NCBI RefSeq assembly: GCF_023276355.1
Contig: NZ_JALLPL010000001.1
Location: forward strand, 1,798,001 to 1,862,000
Length of the DNA: 64,000 nt
From: Haloplanus sp. XH21
Lineage (GTDB): Archaea > Halobacteriota > Halobacteria > Halobacteriales > Haloferacaceae
Direction of reading: 5' to 3'
Shown here: positions 20,170 to 28,326 of the stretch, piece by piece
How the letters are laid out: each line of letters begins with the position of its first letter
Position numbering within the stretch: the first letter of the stretch is position 1
Made by a program: the position numbers and the translations under genes
The notes under the pieces: model-generated
Told to the model about the DNA's origin: nothing
Databases searched by the model: none
What the model saw: only the letters and a program-made list of their open reading frames with translations

Positions 20170-20221
20170 TTTAGGCCCACCTAAAGTTCGAAAGTGGTTT
20201 AACTATTTAGGCTGGCCTAAA
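20170..20221. promoter_or_regulatory. Paired iron-box operators, first ABC operon
   Basis: Two palindromes, TTTAGGCCCACCTAAA (20170-20185) and TTTAGGCTGGCCTAAA (20206-20221), lie 36 bases apart on either side of a TATA-like TTTAACTAT (about 20197-20205). The ATG is at 20226, so the transcript would be leaderless and the right site covers the start of transcription. The sequence type fits DtxR/IdeR-family iron or manganese repressors. Confidence 0.82.
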
Positions 20222-20225
20222 CATC

Positions 20226-21350
20226 ATGTCGCAGGAACCGAACCGTAGCGGCCTGACACGGCGAGCGTATCTGACATGCGGCGGCGCAGTCGTTGCCGGG
20301 GGACTGCTCGCTGGCTGTGCGGGCGGCGCGGGGTCGTCGCCCGACTCGGACGCGGGCGAGTCGCACAGCGTCTCTATCGAGCCAATGGGAGAGGTCACGT
20401 TCGACGCCGTCCCGGAGCGGTGGGTGGCGAACAACGGCAGTTGGGCGGACATGGGCGTGGCGCTCGGCCTCGAACCGCCGAAGGCCGTTTGGCTCACGAG
20501 CCGCTATCATACCCAGTACTACGACGCCGTGCCCGGCGTCTCGGTCGATGCGAGCGACATGGTCCCGCTCTATCAGGACGGCGTGAGCAAGGAGCTGTTC
20601 TACGAACTCGACGCCGATGTCCACGTGATGGATCCCAACTTCCTCATGAACCGGTTCGACGGGTGGGAGCGATCGGACGTCGACGAAATCGAGGAGAACG
20701 TCGCCCCGCTGTTCGGGAACTGCATCTACGCCCAGCATTACCCCTGGCACGAGGACTACCGCTACTACACCCTCTACGAGGCGTTCGAGAAGCTCGCGCG
20801 GGTGTTCGACCGCGTCGACCGATACGAGGCGTTCGAAGGCGTCCACGCCGACTTCCAGCAGTCCCTCTCCCCGGTCGTCCCCGGTGAGGACGAGCGCCCG
20901 TCAGTCGCCGTCACCTGGGGCGTCGGCGACGCGCCCGAATCGTTCTACCCCTACATCATCGGCAAGGGGACCGGATTCAAACACCTGCGCGACCTCGGCG
21001 TTCGCGACGCCCTCGCGAACACGGCAGTCAAGGACTTCCACGGCAGCCGCGCGGCCATCGACCTCGAGACGCTGCTGGAGGTCGATCCCGAGGTGCTGCT
21101 GCTCCGCGGCTACGAGGCCAAATCCGCCGACGAGTTCCAGGAGACGGTCGCGTCGTTCCTCCGGGACCACGACACCGCGAGCGAACTCACCGCGGTGCAG
21201 AACGGCGACATCTACCGCGCCGGTGGCCTGTATCAGGGACCGATCACGAACATGGTGCTCACCGAGCGCACGGCTCGGCAGCTCTACGGGGTCGAGGACG
21301 ACCTGTTCGACCGTGACCGCGTCGCGGCCATCGTCGACGGAGCGCTGTAA
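20226..21350 (+). CDS. Iron-type ABC transporter substrate-binding lipoprotein
   Basis: The 374-aa protein has a Tat signal (LTRRAYLTCGG) and a lipobox with Cys31 (LLAGC), followed by a periplasmic-binding fold of the FecB/BtuF type: EPMGEVTFDAVPERWV, then IDLETLLEVDPEVLLLRGYE and a closing NGDIYRAGG. It is the first gene of an operon with permease and ATPase genes, under paired iron boxes, so it likely binds a ferric siderophore or another iron complex on the cell surface. A cobalamin ligand is less likely because a separate btu-type cluster lies at 50.8-54.3 kb. Confidence 0.87.
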   Translation: MSQEPNRSGLTRRAYLTCGGAVVAGGLLAGCAGGAGSSPDSDAGESHSVSIEPMGEVTFDAVPERWVANNGSWADMGVALGLEPPKAVWLTSRYHTQYYDAVPGVSVDASDMVPLYQDGVSKELFYELDADVHVMDPNFLMNRFDGWERSDVDEIEENVAPLFGNCIYAQHYPWHEDYRYYTLYEAFEKLARVFDRVDRYEAFEGVHADFQQSLSPVVPGEDERPSVAVTWGVGDAPESFYPYIIGKGTGFKHLRDLGVRDALANTAVKDFHGSRAAIDLETLLEVDPEVLLLRGYEAKSADEFQETVASFLRDHDTASELTAVQNGDIYRAGGLYQGPITNMVLTERTARQLYGVEDDLFDRDRVAAIVDGAL

Positions 21351-21437: not shown

Positions 21438-22568
21438 GTGGCCAGTGAATCGGTGACCGACACCGGTGCAGCCAGACACCGCGACGGCTGGCTCGGCTGG
21501 ATCAACGGCTCGCTCGTGGCGCTCTGTCTGGGCAGTCTCGCCGTCGTCGTTGCAGGCGGACTCGTCCAGGTGAGTTTCGGCGCGTTCTCCATGACCGTCG
21601 TCGAAGCCTGGCAGGCCGTGTTCAACCCCGCGGTGCTCTTCGACGGGCAGGCGTGGCGATCCTTCCTCCTCGGGGGCGACCTCCCCGAGATGAACCACCG
21701 CAGCCTCATCGTCTGGAACATCCGCCTGCCCCGCGTGTTCGTCGGCGTGTTGGTCGGGATGAACCTCGCCGTCTCGGGTGCGATCTTTCAGGCGGTCACC
21801 CGCAACGAACTCGCCAGTCCGTTCATCCTCGGCGTCTCCTCGGGAGCCGGCCTGCTGATCTTGCTCACGCTGGTCGTGTTCTCCGGGCTGTCGGCGTTCC
21901 TGCCACTGATCGCCGCCGTCGGCGGCTCGGTGGCATTTCTGATCGTCTACGCCATCGCGTGGAAAAACGGGACGTCGCCCGTCAGACTCGTTCTCGCGGG
22001 GGTCATCGTCGGCACCGTCTTCGGAAGCCTGCAGACGGCGCTGTTTTTCTTCGCGAACGACATCGGCGTCGTCCAGTCCGCCATCGCGTGGACGACTGGC
22101 TCGCTGACGGGGACGGACTGGGAGCAGGTCCGGATGGCCCTGCCGTGGACCGTGGTCGCCATGGTCCTCGCGCTCGCCAGTTCGCGGCAGTTGAACGTCC
22201 TCCTGCTGGGCGAGCGGACGGCGCGGTCGCTGGGCATGAGCGTCGAGCGGGTCCGGTTCGCGCTCTCGGGCGTGGCCGTGCTGGCCGCCGCCGCGAGCAT
22301 CGCCGTCGCGGGTATCGTCGGCTTCGTCGGCCTCATCGTCCCGCACATGGTTCGGAACGTCGTCGGCAGCGACTACCGCCAACTCGTCGTCGGCTGCGTG
22401 TTCGCAGGCCCGGCGCTGATGGTCGTCGCCGACGTGGGCGCGCGACTCGGCCTGCAGATCCTCACCGGGTCGAGCGCCCAGATTCCCGTCGGCATCGTCA
22501 CGGGACTCGTCGGCGGGCCGTATTTCCTCTATCTCATGCGCAAACAGGACAAACTGGGTGAACTCTGA
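21438..22568 (+). CDS. FecCD-type ABC transporter permease
   Basis: The 376-aa membrane protein starts at GTG 21438 and has about ten hydrophobic helices typical of the FecCD/BtuC family. Family motifs visible are NIRLPRVFVGVLVGMNLAVSG near residue 94, ELASPFILGVSSGAG, and the ATPase-contact region IAVAGIVGFVGLIVPHMVRN near residue 290. It exports nothing; it is the channel of an importer working with the binding protein upstream and the ATPase downstream, which starts on its last base. The 87 bases between it and the binding-protein gene hold no clear gene. Confidence 0.92.
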   Translation: MASESVTDTGAARHRDGWLGWINGSLVALCLGSLAVVVAGGLVQVSFGAFSMTVVEAWQAVFNPAVLFDGQAWRSFLLGGDLPEMNHRSLIVWNIRLPRVFVGVLVGMNLAVSGAIFQAVTRNELASPFILGVSSGAGLLILLTLVVFSGLSAFLPLIAAVGGSVAFLIVYAIAWKNGTSPVRLVLAGVIVGTVFGSLQTALFFFANDIGVVQSAIAWTTGSLTGTDWEQVRMALPWTVVAMVLALASSRQLNVLLLGERTARSLGMSVERVRFALSGVAVLAAAASIAVAGIVGFVGLIVPHMVRNVVGSDYRQLVVGCVFAGPALMVVADVGARLGLQILTGSSAQIPVGIVTGLVGGPYFLYLMRKQDKLGEL

Positions 22569-23473
22569 TGCACGACGATCATTCGAACACCGAGAACCGC
22601 CCCGACCCATCGACCGCCGGTGGGTCCGCATCGCTCGCGGGCGAGGAACTGGTCCTCGCGTATCCGGGGGGCGACGATCCGGTCGTCGACGGCGAATCGA
22701 TCACGGTCGAACCCGGCGCCGTGACCGCGCTCGTCGGACCCAACGGCTCGGGCAAGAGCACCCTGTTGAAGGGGCTCGCCGACCAGCTCGCGCCCCAGCG
22801 TGGCTCGGTGTTGCTCGACGGGCGCGACGTCGAGGCCCACGGGTCGAAAGAACTCGCTCGAAAGCTCGGACTGCTCTCCCAGGAGAGCACTTCGCCCGAC
22901 GGAATCACCGTCGAGGACCTCGTGTACCACGGCCGCTACCCCCACCGGGGGGTCTTCGAACGCGTCACCGACGAGGATCAGCGGGCGGTCGACCGGGCGA
23001 TCGATCTCGCAGGCTGTGACCATCTCCGAGACCGCGCCGTCGGCAGCCTCAGCGGCGGGCAGCGGCAGTTGGCGTGGATCGCGATGGCGCTCGCCCAGGA
23101 GACGGACGTTCTCCTGCTCGACGAGCCGACGACCTTCCTCGACCTCCATCACCAGTTGGAAGTGATGGAGATCATCGAGACGCTACGCGACGAGAGCGAC
23201 ATCACCGTCGTCGTCGTGCTTCACGACATCGAACAGGCGGCGCGACTCGCTGATCGTATGGTCGCGCTCAAGGACGGCGAGATCCGGTCGCGCGGGTCGC
23301 CGAAAACCGTCGTCACCGAGGGGCTGCTCGCGGACGTGTTCGATGTCGACGCCGACATCGAGTGGACGGAACGGGGACCACGGGTCACGCCGCTCCGCGC
23401 CCGACACGACGGCGCTGACTCGGGTCACCGCGCTCCGACGCCCCATGCTGACGGCGGGAGCGTCGAACAGTAA
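22568..23473 (+). CDS. FecE-type ABC transporter ATPase
   Basis: The 301-aa ATPase has Walker A GPNGSGKST near residue 58, the signature SGGQRQLAWIAMALAQ, Walker [14 protein letters not shown] and the switch histidine in VLHDIEQA. It matches the siderophore/heme importer ATPases of the FecE group. An acidic N-terminal extension of about 25 residues precedes the domain. The ATG overlaps the permease stop by one base, so the transporter is assembled from one transcript. The C-terminal tail (RHDGADSGHRAP) is not conserved in the family. Confidence 0.92.
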   Translation: MHDDHSNTENRPDPSTAGGSASLAGEELVLAYPGGDDPVVDGESITVEPGAVTALVGPNGSGKSTLLKGLADQLAPQRGSVLLDGRDVEAHGSKELARKLGLLSQESTSPDGITVEDLVYHGRYPHRGVFERVTDEDQRAVDRAIDLAGCDHLRDRAVGSLSGGQRQLAWIAMALAQETDVLLLDEPTTFLDLHHQLEVMEIIETLRDESDITVVVVLHDIEQAARLADRMVALKDGEIRSRGSPKTVVTEGLLADVFDVDADIEWTERGPRVTPLRARHDGADSGHRAPTPHADGGSVEQ

Positions 23474-23559: not shown

Positions 23560-23612
23560 TTTAGGCCAGCCTAAAGACCGGCAGTTATTTATAGAATTTA
23601 GGCTAGCCTAAA
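23560..23612. promoter_or_regulatory. Paired iron-box operators, surface-protein gene
   Basis: TTTAGGCCAGCCTAAA (23560-23575) and the complete palindrome TTTAGGCTAGCCTAAA (23597-23612) are 37 bases apart and flank the TATA box TTATTTATA (about 23585-23593). The gene starts at 23617, about 30 bases after the TATA box. This is the best-conserved pair of the three in the cluster. Confidence 0.85.
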
Positions 23613-23616
23613 ACCG

Positions 23617-24825
23617 ATGCTACCATCGATCGGTACGACGCGACGTTGGACAGTGTGGACAGCCGTTCTCCTGTGTTTCCTACTCGTTGGCAGTGCAGCG
23701 ACCGTCGTCGCGACGGCGCCCGCGCACGTCTCCGTCTCGGGAATGAGCGTCTCGGACGACGAACCGACGGTCGGGGAGACGATCACCGTCACACCGACGA
23801 TCCGACACTCGGGGTCGGGAAGCGGTAGTTTCCAGGTGACGGAGGTGACGCTCGTCGACGCGAGCGGGACGCGCTACGCCGAGGCGAGCGACCTCGGCAC
23901 GCTCGGCGCGGGCGACACCATCGACGTGCCGCTCAGCGCGACGCTTCAGTCCGCGGGGGAGCGAAAGCTCCTCGTCGAGGTTCGCGGGGTGCAGTACGAC
24001 TCCGACGGCAAGTGGAACCGCGTGATCTACACGCGTCACCCCCTCTACGTGAGCGTCTCCGAGCCGACGACATCGACGACGAAGCCGCAGTTGAACGTCG
24101 ACACGGCGGGTCTGACCGCCCGCACCGAGTCGACCGTTCGGGTGACGGCGTCGAATGGCGGCGACAGCGAACTGACGGACCTCTCGCTCCGCCTCTCGGG
24201 GAGCGATGGACTAGAGAACCGGACGAAACTTCAGCCCGCGCTCGCCGCGCAGAACTCGACGACGTTCGAGTTCGACGTGCGTCCGTCCCAGGCGGGGACC
24301 CAGCAGCTCAACGCGACGCTGCAGTACGACGGCGGGAGAACCGTCTCCACCACGAAAGACATCGAGGTCGCACCACTTCGAAACGACGCGGCCGTCTACG
24401 CGACCCTCTCCGAGCAAAACGAGTCGACGGTCCTCCAGTACCGGGTGAGCAACCACGGGAACACGCCGCTGGAGAACGTCGTCGTCTCCGGTGCAGCGAC
24501 GGGGACGCCGCTGCCGACGACGGTGATGTCGACGGTCGAACCCGGCGCGTCGGAGACGGCGACCGTCGAGTTGAACGAACGGCCGTCGGGGGCAGCGACA
24601 GTGTCCGCGACCTACCAGATCGGCGCGACGACCGGACAGGCCGACCAGGCGATCCAGTTCGCCGCGGCCACATCGGACGAAAACGCGCCGGCGACGCCGA
24701 GCGACTCCCAAGGAATGACCGCCGCGCAGAACCGGGAGAACTGGTTCGGACCGCTCCCCTTCCTCACGGGCGGAGTCGTCGCGACCGGCTCCATCCTCGG
24801 CTACCGAAGCTGGCAGGGCAGGTAA
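23617..24825 (+). CDS. Iron-box-controlled surface protein with CARDB-like domains
   Basis: The 402-aa protein has an N-terminal signal peptide (hydrophobic from about residue 12 to 32), two or three immunoglobulin-like repeats of the CARDB/NEW3 type (for example ISVSGMSVSDDEPTVGET and the repeat starting AAVYATLSEQNESTVLQYRV), and a C-terminal membrane span (FLTGGVVATGSILGY) followed by a basic tail. It is therefore a cell-surface protein facing outward. The family function is unknown. Its promoter has two strong iron boxes and it lies between two binding-protein genes, so a role in capturing or passing on iron compounds is inferred. Confidence 0.72.
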   Translation: MLPSIGTTRRWTVWTAVLLCFLLVGSAATVVATAPAHVSVSGMSVSDDEPTVGETITVTPTIRHSGSGSGSFQVTEVTLVDASGTRYAEASDLGTLGAGDTIDVPLSATLQSAGERKLLVEVRGVQYDSDGKWNRVIYTRHPLYVSVSEPTTSTTKPQLNVDTAGLTARTESTVRVTASNGGDSELTDLSLRLSGSDGLENRTKLQPALAAQNSTTFEFDVRPSQAGTQQLNATLQYDGGRTVSTTKDIEVAPLRNDAAVYATLSEQNESTVLQYRVSNHGNTPLENVVVSGAATGTPLPTTVMSTVEPGASETATVELNERPSGAATVSATYQIGATTGQADQAIQFAAATSDENAPATPSDSQGMTAAQNRENWFGPLPFLTGGVVATGSILGYRSWQGR

Positions 24826-24854: not shown

Positions 24855-24906
24855 TTTAGGCGCCCCGAAAATCCGAAAACGCTTTATTGTTTTAGGTAGG
24901 CCTAAA
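24855..24906. promoter_or_regulatory. Paired iron-box operators, second binding-protein gene
   Basis: A good site, TTTAGGTAGGCCTAAA (24891-24906), and a degenerate upstream site, TTTAGGCGCCCCGAAA (24855-24870), are 36 bases apart, as in the other two promoters. The TATA-like CTTTATTGT (about 24882-24890) lies between them, with the ATG at 24911. Confidence 0.78.
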
Positions 24907-24910
24907 TATC

Positions 24911-26107
24911 ATGGTGGGCGACGACGCGACGCGCACACTGACGACGCGGAGAGACGCGATCACGTGCGGTGCGGTCGCCCTGGGAGGTGCACTCACGGGG
25001 TGTCTCGGTGGGGGAGGGTCGGCCACCGAACCGGCCGAGACGACGGGGTCGTACAGCGTGACCATGTCCCCGGCCGGATCAGTGGGGTTCGAGAGCGTGC
25101 CCGAACGCGTCTTCACCGTCTTTCCGCAGTATCTGGACATGGCCGTCGCGCTGGGACGCGGCGACGCCGTCAACACGGTCTACGTCCCCGAGATGTCGGG
25201 GACGACGATGAGCCACTACTACCACCGCCTTGACGGCGTCGATCTGGCGTGGGACGGACTCGTCGACCCCCTGAGCGACGGCCTATCCAAGGAGCACCTG
25301 TACGCGCTCGACAGCGATGTTCACCTCGCGGATCCCGCGTGGGCGTCGACACAGACAAACTGGAGTCGCGAGGACATCGCGGAGATCGCCGACCAGGTCG
25401 CGCCGTGGGTTGGAAACTTCTACAGCGGGACGCAGGCGACGCCTCCGGACGGCTACGACGACTACGACTACTACTCCCTGTGGGACCTGTTCGGGAAGGT
25501 TGCACAGGTCTTCCAGGAGCAGGAGCGCTACGAGGCGCTCGCTCGGGTTCACGACGATCTCGTCTCGACCATCCAGGCCGACCTGCCGCCGGCAGAGGAG
25601 CGCCCGACGGTGGTGCGGTCGACGCTCGCGGCCGACGGATCGAGCTTCTACAGTTACCACCTCAACAAGCCGGGGTACTGGTTGGCCGACACGCGACCGC
25701 TGGGGGCGCACGACCCGTTCGACGACGCCGACTGGGGCGGTCTATGGGGGACCGTCGATTACGAGACGATGCTCGAGGCGGATCCCGACGTCTTCCTCCA
25801 CCTGTGGGGGCTGACGCCGAACTACCAGATGGACGAGGTCCGGCAGTCGCTGGAGAGCCACGAGGTCGGCAGCCAGCTCGCTGCCGTCGAGAACGACCGC
25901 GTCTATCCCGCCGGGATGCGTTACCAGGGGCCGATCATGAACCTGTTCCAGATCGAAATGGGGGCGAAACAGCTCTACCCCGACCGGTTCGGGGCGTGGC
26001 CGGGCTACGAGGACGGCGATCACTACCCGGAACTTCCCGAAGACGAGCAGTTGTTCGATCGCCAGCGGGTTGCGGACATCGTCACCGGGAGGGCGGAGGG
26101 CGAATGA
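24911..26107 (+). CDS. Second iron-type ABC substrate-binding lipoprotein
   Basis: The 398-aa product has a Tat signal (TTRRDAITCGA), a lipobox ending at Cys31 (LTGC), and a FecB-like binding fold: MSPAGSVGFESVPERVF, YETMLEADPDVFLHLWG, and a final VYPAGMRYQGPIMN. It is paralogous to the first binding protein in the cluster, sharing the DGLSKEHLYALDSDVH-like and NRVYPAG-like segments, but no permease or ATPase accompanies it, so it may feed the same transporter. Control by the iron boxes in front of it is strongly suggested. Confidence 0.86.
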   Translation: MVGDDATRTLTTRRDAITCGAVALGGALTGCLGGGGSATEPAETTGSYSVTMSPAGSVGFESVPERVFTVFPQYLDMAVALGRGDAVNTVYVPEMSGTTMSHYYHRLDGVDLAWDGLVDPLSDGLSKEHLYALDSDVHLADPAWASTQTNWSREDIAEIADQVAPWVGNFYSGTQATPPDGYDDYDYYSLWDLFGKVAQVFQEQERYEALARVHDDLVSTIQADLPPAEERPTVVRSTLAADGSSFYSYHLNKPGYWLADTRPLGAHDPFDDADWGGLWGTVDYETMLEADPDVFLHLWGLTPNYQMDEVRQSLESHEVGSQLAAVENDRVYPAGMRYQGPIMNLFQIEMGAKQLYPDRFGAWPGYEDGDHYPELPEDEQLFDRQRVADIVTGRAEGE

Positions 26108-26170: not shown

Positions 26171-26956
26171 ATGGCCGTCGAGACACACGTCGACCAGGCC
26201 CGGTCGCGCGTCAACGCGGAACGGGCGGCGGTCGTGGCCAAGCGCGACGCGTTCGAGACGTTCCGCGACCGGGTGGCGGGGATCGCACCCGAGCCGACGC
26301 CGTCGCTCTCGTCGGGCATCTCGACGACGGCCGGCGCCGTCCACGGGGAGTCCAGTACCGACGACCGCTGTCGAACGGTTCGGACGGCCTTCGCCGAGAC
26401 CGTCCGCCCGCACAGCGTCGACGACGCGGCCGACGCCGAACCTCTGCTCGCGACCATCCGGGCCGAGTTCACGGATTCGATCGCCGTCGCGCTCGCCCCG
26501 ACGACTGCGCCGCCGTTCTCGGCGGAACTCAAGCGGGCCATCGTCGCCGAAACCACTGCCCGGCAGGCCGAAATCGAGACGCTGGATCGGGCGCTCGAGC
26601 GGGAGCGCGCGCAGCTCGATGACGCCGGAACGGTCCTCTGGACGGTCACCGACTGGATCGCCGACGCGAACGAGACGCCGCTGTCGGCGCTGGGGTTCGA
26701 CACGCTCCGGAAGCGACACGAGACACTCGCGGCACACCGCGATCGGTGTGCGGACCTCACCGAGCAGCGGCAGGCGTTCCTCCGAGAGACGACGACCGGG
26801 GACGCCGGCGCCGAGATCCACCACCGCGACCTCGTTCCGTATCTCTACGGGGAGTCTCCGGTCGACTATCCGGTCCTGACGACGGCCACGCGTCTGGACG
26901 ATGTCTGTGCCGCGTGTCAGCGAACCGTCCGCGACCATCTGGTACGGAGGGCCTGA
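26171..26956 (+). CDS. Haloarchaeal DUF7260-like helical protein
   Basis: This 261-aa soluble, mostly helical protein resembles a haloarchaeal family I recall as DUF7260, with a C-terminal signature HHRDLVPYLYGESPVDYPVL followed by a short C-x2-C pair (CAACQ). No catalytic motif or membrane segment is seen. The N-terminal half is predicted coiled coil (ERAAVVAKRDAFETF). It lies between the second binding protein and the DtxR-like regulator on the same strand, with a 63-base gap before it and 7 bases after it. Any role in iron metabolism is guilt by association. Confidence 0.6.
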   Translation: MAVETHVDQARSRVNAERAAVVAKRDAFETFRDRVAGIAPEPTPSLSSGISTTAGAVHGESSTDDRCRTVRTAFAETVRPHSVDDAADAEPLLATIRAEFTDSIAVALAPTTAPPFSAELKRAIVAETTARQAEIETLDRALERERAQLDDAGTVLWTVTDWIADANETPLSALGFDTLRKRHETLAAHRDRCADLTEQRQAFLRETTTGDAGAEIHHRDLVPYLYGESPVDYPVLTTATRLDDVCAACQRTVRDHLVRRA

Positions 26957-26963
26957 CCGGACG

Positions 26964-27359
26964 ATGAGCGGGGCGTCCGAGTATCTCCTCGTCCTCTACA
27001 TCGCCGAGCAAGGGGCGGGGGCACCCGTCCCACCGGGTGATGTCGCCGAGGCGGTCGGTCGCTCCCCGTCCGCGACGACGGAGATGCTCCAGCGACTCGC
27101 CGAGCAGGGCCTCGTCACGCACGAACCGTACGAGGGGGCGACCCTGACTGCCGACGGACGGGCGAGAGCCGAGGAGATCCACGGGACGTACACCACCCTC
27201 TCGCGGTTCTTCGGGGAGGTGCTCGATCTGGACGACCCCGAGGATGCCGCGATGTCGGTGGCCGGGAACATCAGCCCCGCTGTGGCAAACCGGCTCGCCG
27301 CGACCCTCCTCGATGGGGATCCCATGCAGAGTCGGCTGTCGAACGGGGAACAGTCGTGA
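26964..27359 (+). CDS. DtxR-like regulator lacking usual metal ligands
   Basis: The 131-aa product has the DtxR-family N-terminal winged helix: SEYLLVLYIAEQG, then DVAEAVGRSPSATTEMLQRLAEQGLVTHEPYEGATLTADG. The dimerisation domain is present but short (LSRFFGEVLDLDDPEDAA to ISPAVANRL). In typical DtxR/IdeR the segment here carries E-A-C-x2-E-H metal ligands and an R-H-R-x-L-E helix; this protein has AAMSVAGNIS and GTYTTLSRF instead, so canonical metal-site residues are missing. There is no SH3-like third domain. It is the obvious candidate to bind the TTTAGG-N4-CCTAAA sites in the cluster, but may use a different signal or partner. Confidence 0.78.
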   Translation: MSGASEYLLVLYIAEQGAGAPVPPGDVAEAVGRSPSATTEMLQRLAEQGLVTHEPYEGATLTADGRARAEEIHGTYTTLSRFFGEVLDLDDPEDAAMSVAGNISPAVANRLAATLLDGDPMQSRLSNGEQS

Positions 27360-27420: not shown

Positions 27421-27708
27421 ATGACGGAGTCAGAGACCACCGACCGAACGACGATTCGCACCGGCCGCGAGTTCGAACAGGAGTACCGTCTCGACGCGAG
27501 CGAAGCCGGCGATTTTCTGATCGACCTCGGCGAGCAACTCCGTGACGGCGACGAACTGACCCTCGTCGAGGAGGAGTGGGAACTCCCCTTCGCCTTCGGT
27601 GAGCCGGTCGACCTCGACATCGACTTCGACGGCGTCGGCGAGCCGACCCTGGAAATCGAAGTCGAACTTCCCGGTCGAACCGACGAAAAAGCGCCCGATA
27701 TCGCGTAG
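27421..27708 (+). CDS. amphi-Trp domain protein
   Basis: The 95-aa acidic protein has the pattern of the amphi-Trp domain: RTGREFEQEYRLDASEAGDF, LIDLGEQLRDGDELTL and a closing WELPFAFGEPVDLDI-like segment with alternating hydrophobic residues. These small proteins are common in haloarchaea and bacteria. Function is unknown. The gene lies 61 bases after the DtxR-like gene, and its stop ends one base before the convergent Dps gene's stop codon, so the two transcripts probably overlap at their 3' ends. Confidence 0.75.
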   Translation: MTESETTDRTTIRTGREFEQEYRLDASEAGDFLIDLGEQLRDGDELTLVEEEWELPFAFGEPVDLDIDFDGVGEPTLEIEVELPGRTDEKAPDIA

Positions 27709-27709
27709 A

Positions 27710-28255
27710 TTAGTTCGACGCGGAGTCGAGGACGAGCGTGTCGTCCTCGAGGTAGTGGTGGAAGACGTGGGCATGGTCCTCGATGCCTTCGAGCTGCTCG
27801 CGCAGCATCTGGGCGGTCGCGTGGTCGCCGAGACCCTCCGCGAGCTCGATGTGTTCGCGGTAGCTCTCGATGATGTCGCCGTACATCTCGAGGTCGTTCG
27901 CCAGCGAGGTTCGGATGTCGTAGACATCCTCGTTTTCGGGGTCGACGGTAGCCACCTCGGAGAGGGTAGCCATGTTCGCGTGGGGAACGCCGCCGAGCGC
28001 CTGGAGCCGCTCGGCGAGTTCGTCGGCCGCGGCCTCGACTGCCTCGTACGCCTCCTGCAGGAAGACGTGGATGTCGCGGAACTCCGCGCCCTCGACGTTC
28101 CAGTGGTGCTTGTGGAGCTGATGGTACAGCACGTACGCGTCCGCGAGGTCCGTGTTCAGCGCCTCGATGATCCGCGCCGTCTTCTCCTCTTCGAGTCGGA
28201 CCGGGTTCTCGCCAACCGTGCCTGCTTCCTGACGAACCGTCTTGTGAGTGTTCAT
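27710..28255 (-). CDS. dpsA: DpsA ferritin-like DNA protection protein
   Basis: The 181-aa protein is a Dps-family ferritin. The helices carry the ferroxidase-site residues of the family: HKHHWNVEG near residue 52, and FLQEAYEAVEAAADELAERL about 15 residues later. Dps forms a 12-subunit shell that oxidises and stores iron and protects DNA during starvation and oxidative stress. A short N-terminal extension (NTHKTVRQEAG) is typical of halobacterial DpsA. A TATA box (AAGTTATAAG on the minus strand, about 28283-28292) gives a leaderless start, with a degenerate iron box further upstream. Confidence 0.95.
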   Translation of the reverse strand: MNTHKTVRQEAGTVGENPVRLEEEKTARIIEALNTDLADAYVLYHQLHKHHWNVEGAEFRDIHVFLQEAYEAVEAAADELAERLQALGGVPHANMATLSEVATVDPENEDVYDIRTSLANDLEMYGDIIESYREHIELAEGLGDHATAQMLREQLEGIEDHAHVFHHYLEDDTLVLDSASN

Positions 28256-28310: not shown

Positions 28311-28326
28311 TTTCGCACGGCCTAAA
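28311..28326. promoter_or_regulatory. Degenerate iron-box upstream of dpsA
   Basis: TTTCGCACGGCCTAAA matches one arm of the TTTAGG-N4-CCTAAA operator exactly and the outer TTT of the other. It lies about 30 bases upstream of the dpsA TATA box, a position that suits activation rather than repression. No second site at 36 bases is seen. Confidence 0.45.

Follow-up and report, generated by a model that had tools for sequence, protein, structure and literature searches.

Replacement of the canonical metal ligands in an Idr-type haloarchaeal protein of predicted DtxR fold, a probable regulator encoded at a siderophore-type uptake locus

The window analysed here, a 64,000-nucleotide stretch of DNA from Haloplanus sp. 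XH21, encodes an Idr-type regulator that, as judged from its sequence, is a member of the DtxR superfamily by descent and stands outside the metal-dependent class, whose defining ligands it lacks. The computations establish that ligand replacement extends throughout the clade as sampled, that the predicted fold is kept, that the gene is under selection, and that iron boxes are present at the locus. We propose, as a tentative reading with close to an even chance of being correct, that Idr is a metal-blind DtxR paralogue that obtains its iron input via its own iron-box-controlled expression and would bind DNA as a metal-free dimer; we infer its DNA binding, its dimer state, its targets and its iron-dependent expression. 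The features of the locus are as follows.

20170-20185 and 20206-20221: tandem iron boxes ahead of the SBP1 gene
20226..21350, plus strand: substrate-binding protein SBP1 (Peripla_BP_2, 57.0 bits)
21438..22568, plus strand: FecCD-family permease
22568..23473, plus strand: ABC ATPase (best NCBIfam matches to FecE and enterobactin types, all below their cut-offs)
23560-23575 and 23597-23612: tandem iron boxes ahead of the CARDB gene
23617..24825, plus strand: CARDB-domain protein
24855-24870 (one mismatch) and 24891-24906: tandem iron boxes ahead of the SBP2 gene
24911..26107, plus strand: substrate-binding protein SBP2 (Peripla_BP_2)
26171..26956, plus strand: DUF7260 protein, 261 aa, all-helical model, ending 7 nt ahead of idr
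26964..27359, plus strand: idr, Idr-type DtxR-fold regulator, 131 aa plus stop (ORF list, Pfam, predicted fold)
27246..27275, plus strand: A-A-M-S-V-A-G-N-I-S, residues 95-104 of Idr, in place of E-A-C-x-x-E-H-x-x-S (by alignment C102 to M, E105 to A, H106 to G)
27421..27708, plus strand: amphi-Trp domain protein (NCBIfam 43.6 bits, cut-off 31; Pfam 20.9 bits, below the cut-off of 27)
27710..28255, minus strand: dpsA (haloarchaeal DpsA), convergent with idr
28311..28326, minus strand: composite half iron box TTTAGG-N5-CGAAA, ~70 bp upstream of dpsA

The idr gene is the next-to-last gene of a same-strand, siderophore-type uptake array that extends from SBP1 to the amphi-Trp gene, the product of which was searched starting at its second codon (27424). 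The iron box, a TTTAGG-N4-CCTAAA palindrome, was derived by dyad counting in upstream regions; seven matches with at most two mismatches are found in the window versus 0.06 expected, and they comprise three pairs and one dpsA site. The spacing within the three tandem pairs is 36-37 bp, and BRE/TATA-like sequence is seen by eye between the boxes. The whole genome carries 17 sites with at most one mismatch, versus one for a backward control. The pair ahead of SBP2 is the nearest one upstream of DUF7260-idr, ~2.1 kb 5' of idr, and idr may be co-transcribed with SBP2, to judge from gaps of ~64 and 7 nt. The preliminary description had placed the regulator inside an iron regulon, and an iron locus is supported by the iron boxes, the siderophore-type ABC genes and dpsA. 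To this it can be added that iron-box promoters precede the gene and would supply an iron input through transcription. We also note that an oxidoreductase gene of the FAD/pyridine-nucleotide type (Pfam on L057) lies directly 5' of idr in 7 of 17 cluster-bearing loci (L055, L057, L059, L067, L095, L101 and L103), and its product is a candidate ferric-siderophore reductase.

The alignment of relatives favours the ATG at 26964 as the start of idr, and a longer same-frame ORF from 26901 was rejected. The winged-helix domain of the window protein (PF01325, Fe_dep_repress) scores 45.6 bits in Pfam against a cut-off of 26, and the metal-binding/dimerisation domain (PF02742) reaches 17.7 bits, below its cut-off of 27, and is absent at E 0.001 in the family search of the own genome. 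The AlphaFold2 model, built on a 63-row alignment and having a mean pLDDT of 86.5, predicts a two-domain DtxR fold with helices at residues 63-86, 92-102 and 105-116 and no third domain; residues 119-131 have pLDDT below 50. Superposition of the predicted model on DtxR (1ddn_A) gives a Z of 15.9 and 2.2 Å over 114 residues, in which residues 1-117 match DtxR residues 3-122, and the model also superposes on IdeR and MntR structures. The loop ahead of the ligand helix has two residues fewer than in TroR and most other aligned relatives; the same is true of SirR, a name that we take here for a haloarchaeal DtxR paralogue, with the paralogue in the own genome as guide. The shortened dimerisation domain described earlier is therefore apt for the low PF02742 score, the loop, the missing third domain and the poorly modelled tail, but not for the predicted core, which still superposes on DtxR. 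The HTH domain, regarded earlier as normal, is so in family score and fold, but its base-contact positions are unlike those of TroR. The base contacts of IdeR are given in an excerpt of PMC10317159 as Ser37, Pro39, Thr40 and Gln43. The corresponding residues are T, P, T and S in TroR (each 11/11), S, A, S and E in SirR (each 16/16), and S (61/63), A (49/63), A (46/63) and E (60/63) in Idr. Since these residues resemble those of SirR, the sequence recognised by Idr may be closer to that of SirR than to that of TroR, and both a heterodimer and a separate set of targets are conceivable. Action of Idr on the same boxes as TroR is not assured either, because its recognition helix is nearer to that of SirR than to that of TroR.

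The ligand columns were counted in 63 Idr-type proteins, namely the window protein and 62 haloarchaeal relatives from named genomes. Out of 106 confirmed matches in the search for relatives, 80 were retained; 63 of these 80 are haloarchaeal (L051-L113), and the fragment L113 was excluded from these counts. The comparison set (n = 16) consists of the TroR-type protein of the own genome and 15 non-haloarchaeal relatives, with L120 and L128 unused, and the SirR-type set consists of 14 proteins, with L021 excluded. In the window protein, the DtxR ligands Met10, His79, Glu83 and His98 correspond to E6, Y76, S80 and E93, and Cys102, Glu105 and His106 correspond to M97, A100 and G101. The primary metal site, which takes Met10 or Asp/Glu, Cys102 or Glu/Asp, Glu105 and His106, thus reads E, M, A and G, and the ancillary site of His79, Glu83 and His98 reads Y, S and E; neither set is present. 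Cys102, Glu105, His106, Glu83 and His98 are each found in 0/63 Idr-type proteins and His79 in 1/63. The residues found instead are Q 34, E 12, R 12, H 2, T 2 and L 1 at column M10; Y 61, H 1 and F 1 at H79; S 56, A 4, L 2 and V 1 at E83; E 56, D 6 and R 1 at H98; M 55, L 4, R 3 and I 1 at C102; A 49, V 11, T 2 and C 1 at E105; and G 56, D 3, A 3 and E 1 at H106. In the comparison proteins, E105 and H106 are present in 16/16, one of C, D or E at column 102 in 16/16, H79 in 14/16, E83 in 14/16 and H98 in 12/16. The earlier claim that the canonical metal ligands are missing is borne out by the alignment, in which E-A-C-x-x-E-H has become A-A-M-S-V-A-G at residues 95-101. The replacement is real, conserved and no artefact; a local artefact is excluded because the 62 other loci show the same state and dN/dS lies below 1.

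Some other haloarchaeal DtxR-like proteins bear on the same motif. L161, L162 and L165 are without E-A-C-x-x-E-H, and in these proteins the metal site may have been lost a second time; their grouping in the tree is weak (94/75, long branches). L163 and L158 have an intact E-A-C-R-L-E-H, and L163, which also has a SirR-like C-P-D-C-Y tail, is a possible intermediate between canonical and SirR/Idr types.

Metal could still be bound through other residues. The preliminary description had considered both ligands displaced but present elsewhere and new ligands altogether; no clear shifted set is found in the 63 proteins, and none of their columns holds a substitute Cys or His in 70% or more of them. 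The most frequent His column is residue 73 (His in 39/63, Tyr in 23/63, H in the window protein), followed by residues 92 (His in 34/63, window P) and 16 (His in 27/63, window Q). For Cys, the best-populated column holds this residue in 11/63 only, 27/63 proteins have no Cys at all, and 6/63 have no His. Acidic and Met columns are conserved by the old site, namely E93 (56/63), E95 (57/63) and M97 (55/63). E6 and E93 of the window protein are not alien at their columns, because Glu occupies the M10 column in 11/16 and the H98 column in 4/16 comparison proteins. With E6 and E93 at ligand columns, H73, and the conserved E93, E95 and M97 positions, the window protein may still bind metal weakly. 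A metal site built from H73, E93, E95, M97 or other residues would draw on this conservation, but E95 is Ala in the window protein, the Cys and His columns all fall short of 70%, Ala or Val predominates at column 105 and Gly at column 106, and Tyr is nearly always found at column 79; the part of the suggestion that stands is the conserved acidic/Met patch with H73, and we consider such a site very unlikely.

A tree of 79 rows and 104 columns was computed with the ligand columns removed, leaving out L157, L158, L164 and rows more than 90% identical to a kept row; its midpoint root serves for drawing only, and its inner forks are often weak. All 40 Idr rows form one clade (100/99), which contains both the window protein and I_L070, an aconitase-linked protein of Haloferax. 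The nearest clade is SirR, and TroR forms a clade of its own (7 rows, 100/96). For 23 proteins in four groups, compared over their first 115 codons, dN/dS is 0.03-0.54 in 53/56 pairs, the other three having too few synonymous changes for a value. Purifying selection maintains the Idr-type protein. The gene might instead be degenerating and functionless, as could be suggested by a broken copy in G010 and an incomplete copy from Natronorubrum thiooxidans (L113). Its distribution is also patchy, because matches of at least 150 bits occur in just 86/293 genomes of the order (88 places); two further genomes have places at 136 bits, and SirR-type matches come next in score. Against decay stand the dN/dS values and a full-length idr in 62/63 haloarchaeal loci, so that we give it hardly any credence. 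An apparent premature stop in L006/G017 was rejected, the TGA being the natural end after residue 120. Among 30 listed of the 52 plasmid records matched, at least 14 show 44-63% identity, and 13 of those 14 are annotated as “metal-dependent transcriptional regulator”, a database name given to a clade without canonical metal ligands.

In seven Haloferax species, the genes are ordered aconitase, a small DUF6069 membrane-type gene, DUF7260 and the relative of idr, with dpsA facing them; for one of these loci (L070), Pfam confirmed the aconitase, DUF6069, DUF7260 and a ferritin-like protein. The H. volcanii genome also contains a DUF7260, which was found as a search control. Excerpts of the literature give acnA of this organism as HVO_0541 (PMC3828320) and Idr as HVO_0538 (PMC11349517), that is, three gene numbers apart. 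Because the aconitase-DUF6069-DUF7260 gene order and the HVO numbering agree, the group is named Idr here; gene order in the seven species and the H. volcanii gene numbers make it very probable that the clade is the Idr group already described from haloarchaea, orthologous to HVO_0538. The ligand loss, which the preliminary description had reported for one protein, is shared by this whole clade.

Iron boxes accompany idr in most loci. Among 64 loci (63 haloarchaeal ones and the window), 47 have a box no more than 1.6 kb upstream of idr, the window not being one of these, and in eight Halorubrum loci it is found at -19/-20 of the chosen idr start. Exact tandem pairs are present in 25/60 relatives' genomes, with and without idr, and the idea that they are Idr-specific was rejected (11/16 genomes with Idr vs 14/44 without; Fisher p 0.017, ignoring relatedness). 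According to PMC10317159, a single box is usual at genes that IdeR represses and several boxes are more typical of those that it activates, and for this reason paired boxes alone are no proof of repression.

The preferred reading, a metal-blind Idr controlled by its own expression, would work as follows. Idr appears to retain its winged-helix domain for DNA binding together with the helical core of the dimerisation domain, with the metal-site residues lost and the third domain absent. At high iron, the iron-box promoters would be shut by a metal-binding paralogue, putatively the genome's own TroR-type protein, and with falling iron Idr would be produced along with siderophore uptake. TroR reportedly represses idr in H. 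volcanii, according to a 2024 paper in Nucleic Acids Research. The level of Idr would be iron-dependent because the iron boxes would act through the metal-binding paralogue, and the iron dependence would reside in the amount of Idr made. Bound to DNA as a metal-free dimer, the protein would then serve as a second-tier or feedback regulator of iron-network promoters, candidates being those of the linked dpsA and of the uptake genes. Full activity of IdeR needs both metal sites filled, as stated in an excerpt of PMC10317159; according to the same excerpted review, M. tuberculosis IdeR without the SH3-like domain dimerises in the absence of metal, which makes a metal-free Idr dimer plausible. A two-domain protein with both sites replaced would therefore most simply be a metal-free dimer, of which the level, not the occupancy, is informative. 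DtxR proteins that lack metal ligands or are metal-independent are absent from the titles and abstract openings listed, although the ligand loss may have been noted before.

The DUF7260 protein encoded upstream offers a different route, in which Idr would sense a redox, ligand or protein cue, for example via this neighbour. DUF7260 is the same-strand upstream neighbour of idr in 19/64 loci, its gene overlaps idr by 4 nt in the seven Haloferax loci, and its C-terminal C-Q-R-x-V-R-x-H-L signature is invariant (20/20). However, the neighbour was not detected in the other 45/64 loci (tblastn, E 1e-3), a second DUF7260 is found elsewhere in the own genome, and Idr has no conserved Cys for redox sensing; we regard sensing of another signal as rather unlikely.

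The promoter of dpsA points to a further possibility. A dpsA gene is situated within 3 kb of idr in 35/64 loci; a box-like match is present upstream of 34 of these dpsA genes, and 33 have the TTTAGG-N5-CGAAA form. In a comparison that covered the best 30 dpsA places with loci, the exact composite form is found in 7/7 idr-linked and 1/23 unlinked dpsA. The genome has two dpsA genes (27710-28255 of the window and G000:C1:1169398-1169940), which are 69% identical, and the composite-box check covered the idr-linked copy. These sites would suit a heterodimer, in which Idr, partnered with SirR or TroR, would tether or poison the metal-sensing subunit and read half of the composite site; the composite site and the iron box are equal in total length, and SirR is the clade nearest to Idr. 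On the other hand, G047 (a MAG, 78% complete) has the composite site with idr not detected, and the right half of the site may belong to basal transcription, because CGAAA resembles a BRE. Shared descent may also explain the composite promoter, since the idr-linked dpsA copies are mostly the closest relatives of the query. Taken together, we consider the heterodimer unlikely. A doubtful combination, which we rate as quite unlikely, is that sensing and acting are split: TroR would set the amount of the metal-blind paralogue, which would pair with SirR or TroR on TTTAGG-N5-CGAAA and thereby set the linked dpsA. If so, a member of the DtxR family would be a dose-controlled partner and not a sensor. 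More generally, a metal-independent Idr would mean that sensor and effector are separate in the iron network of haloarchaea, and that DtxR-fold proteins can be dose-controlled regulators. These proposals are testable in a genetically tractable organism, in which the conserved composite box at the linked dpsA provides a target.

Comparison with known systems places Idr closest to SirR, with which it shares, besides adjacency in the tree, the two-residue loop deletion and the S-P-A...E-M recognition helix. SirR-type proteins have Y at column 79 (14/14) and A, S, P or G at column 106; unlike Idr, they retain E105 (14/14), E83 (13/14) and a C-P-D-C-F...C tail, and these hallmarks (Glu83, Glu105 and the Cys-rich C-terminal tail) are absent from the window protein. 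TroR, DtxR and IdeR share the DtxR fold with the window protein, as seen in the superposition of the predicted model on 1ddn_A, but they have both metal sites and the third domain, of which the window protein has neither. The recognition helix of TroR (T-x-P-T...S) is also unlike that of Idr, and the TroR-type protein of the own genome (G000:C1:2006696) has D, H, E, H, D, E and H at the ligand columns. MntR has a two-domain size like that of the window protein and the fold predicted for it; in contrast to Idr, it retains metal ligands, with Asp/Asn and Glu replacing Met10 and Cys102 according to an excerpt of PMC10317159.
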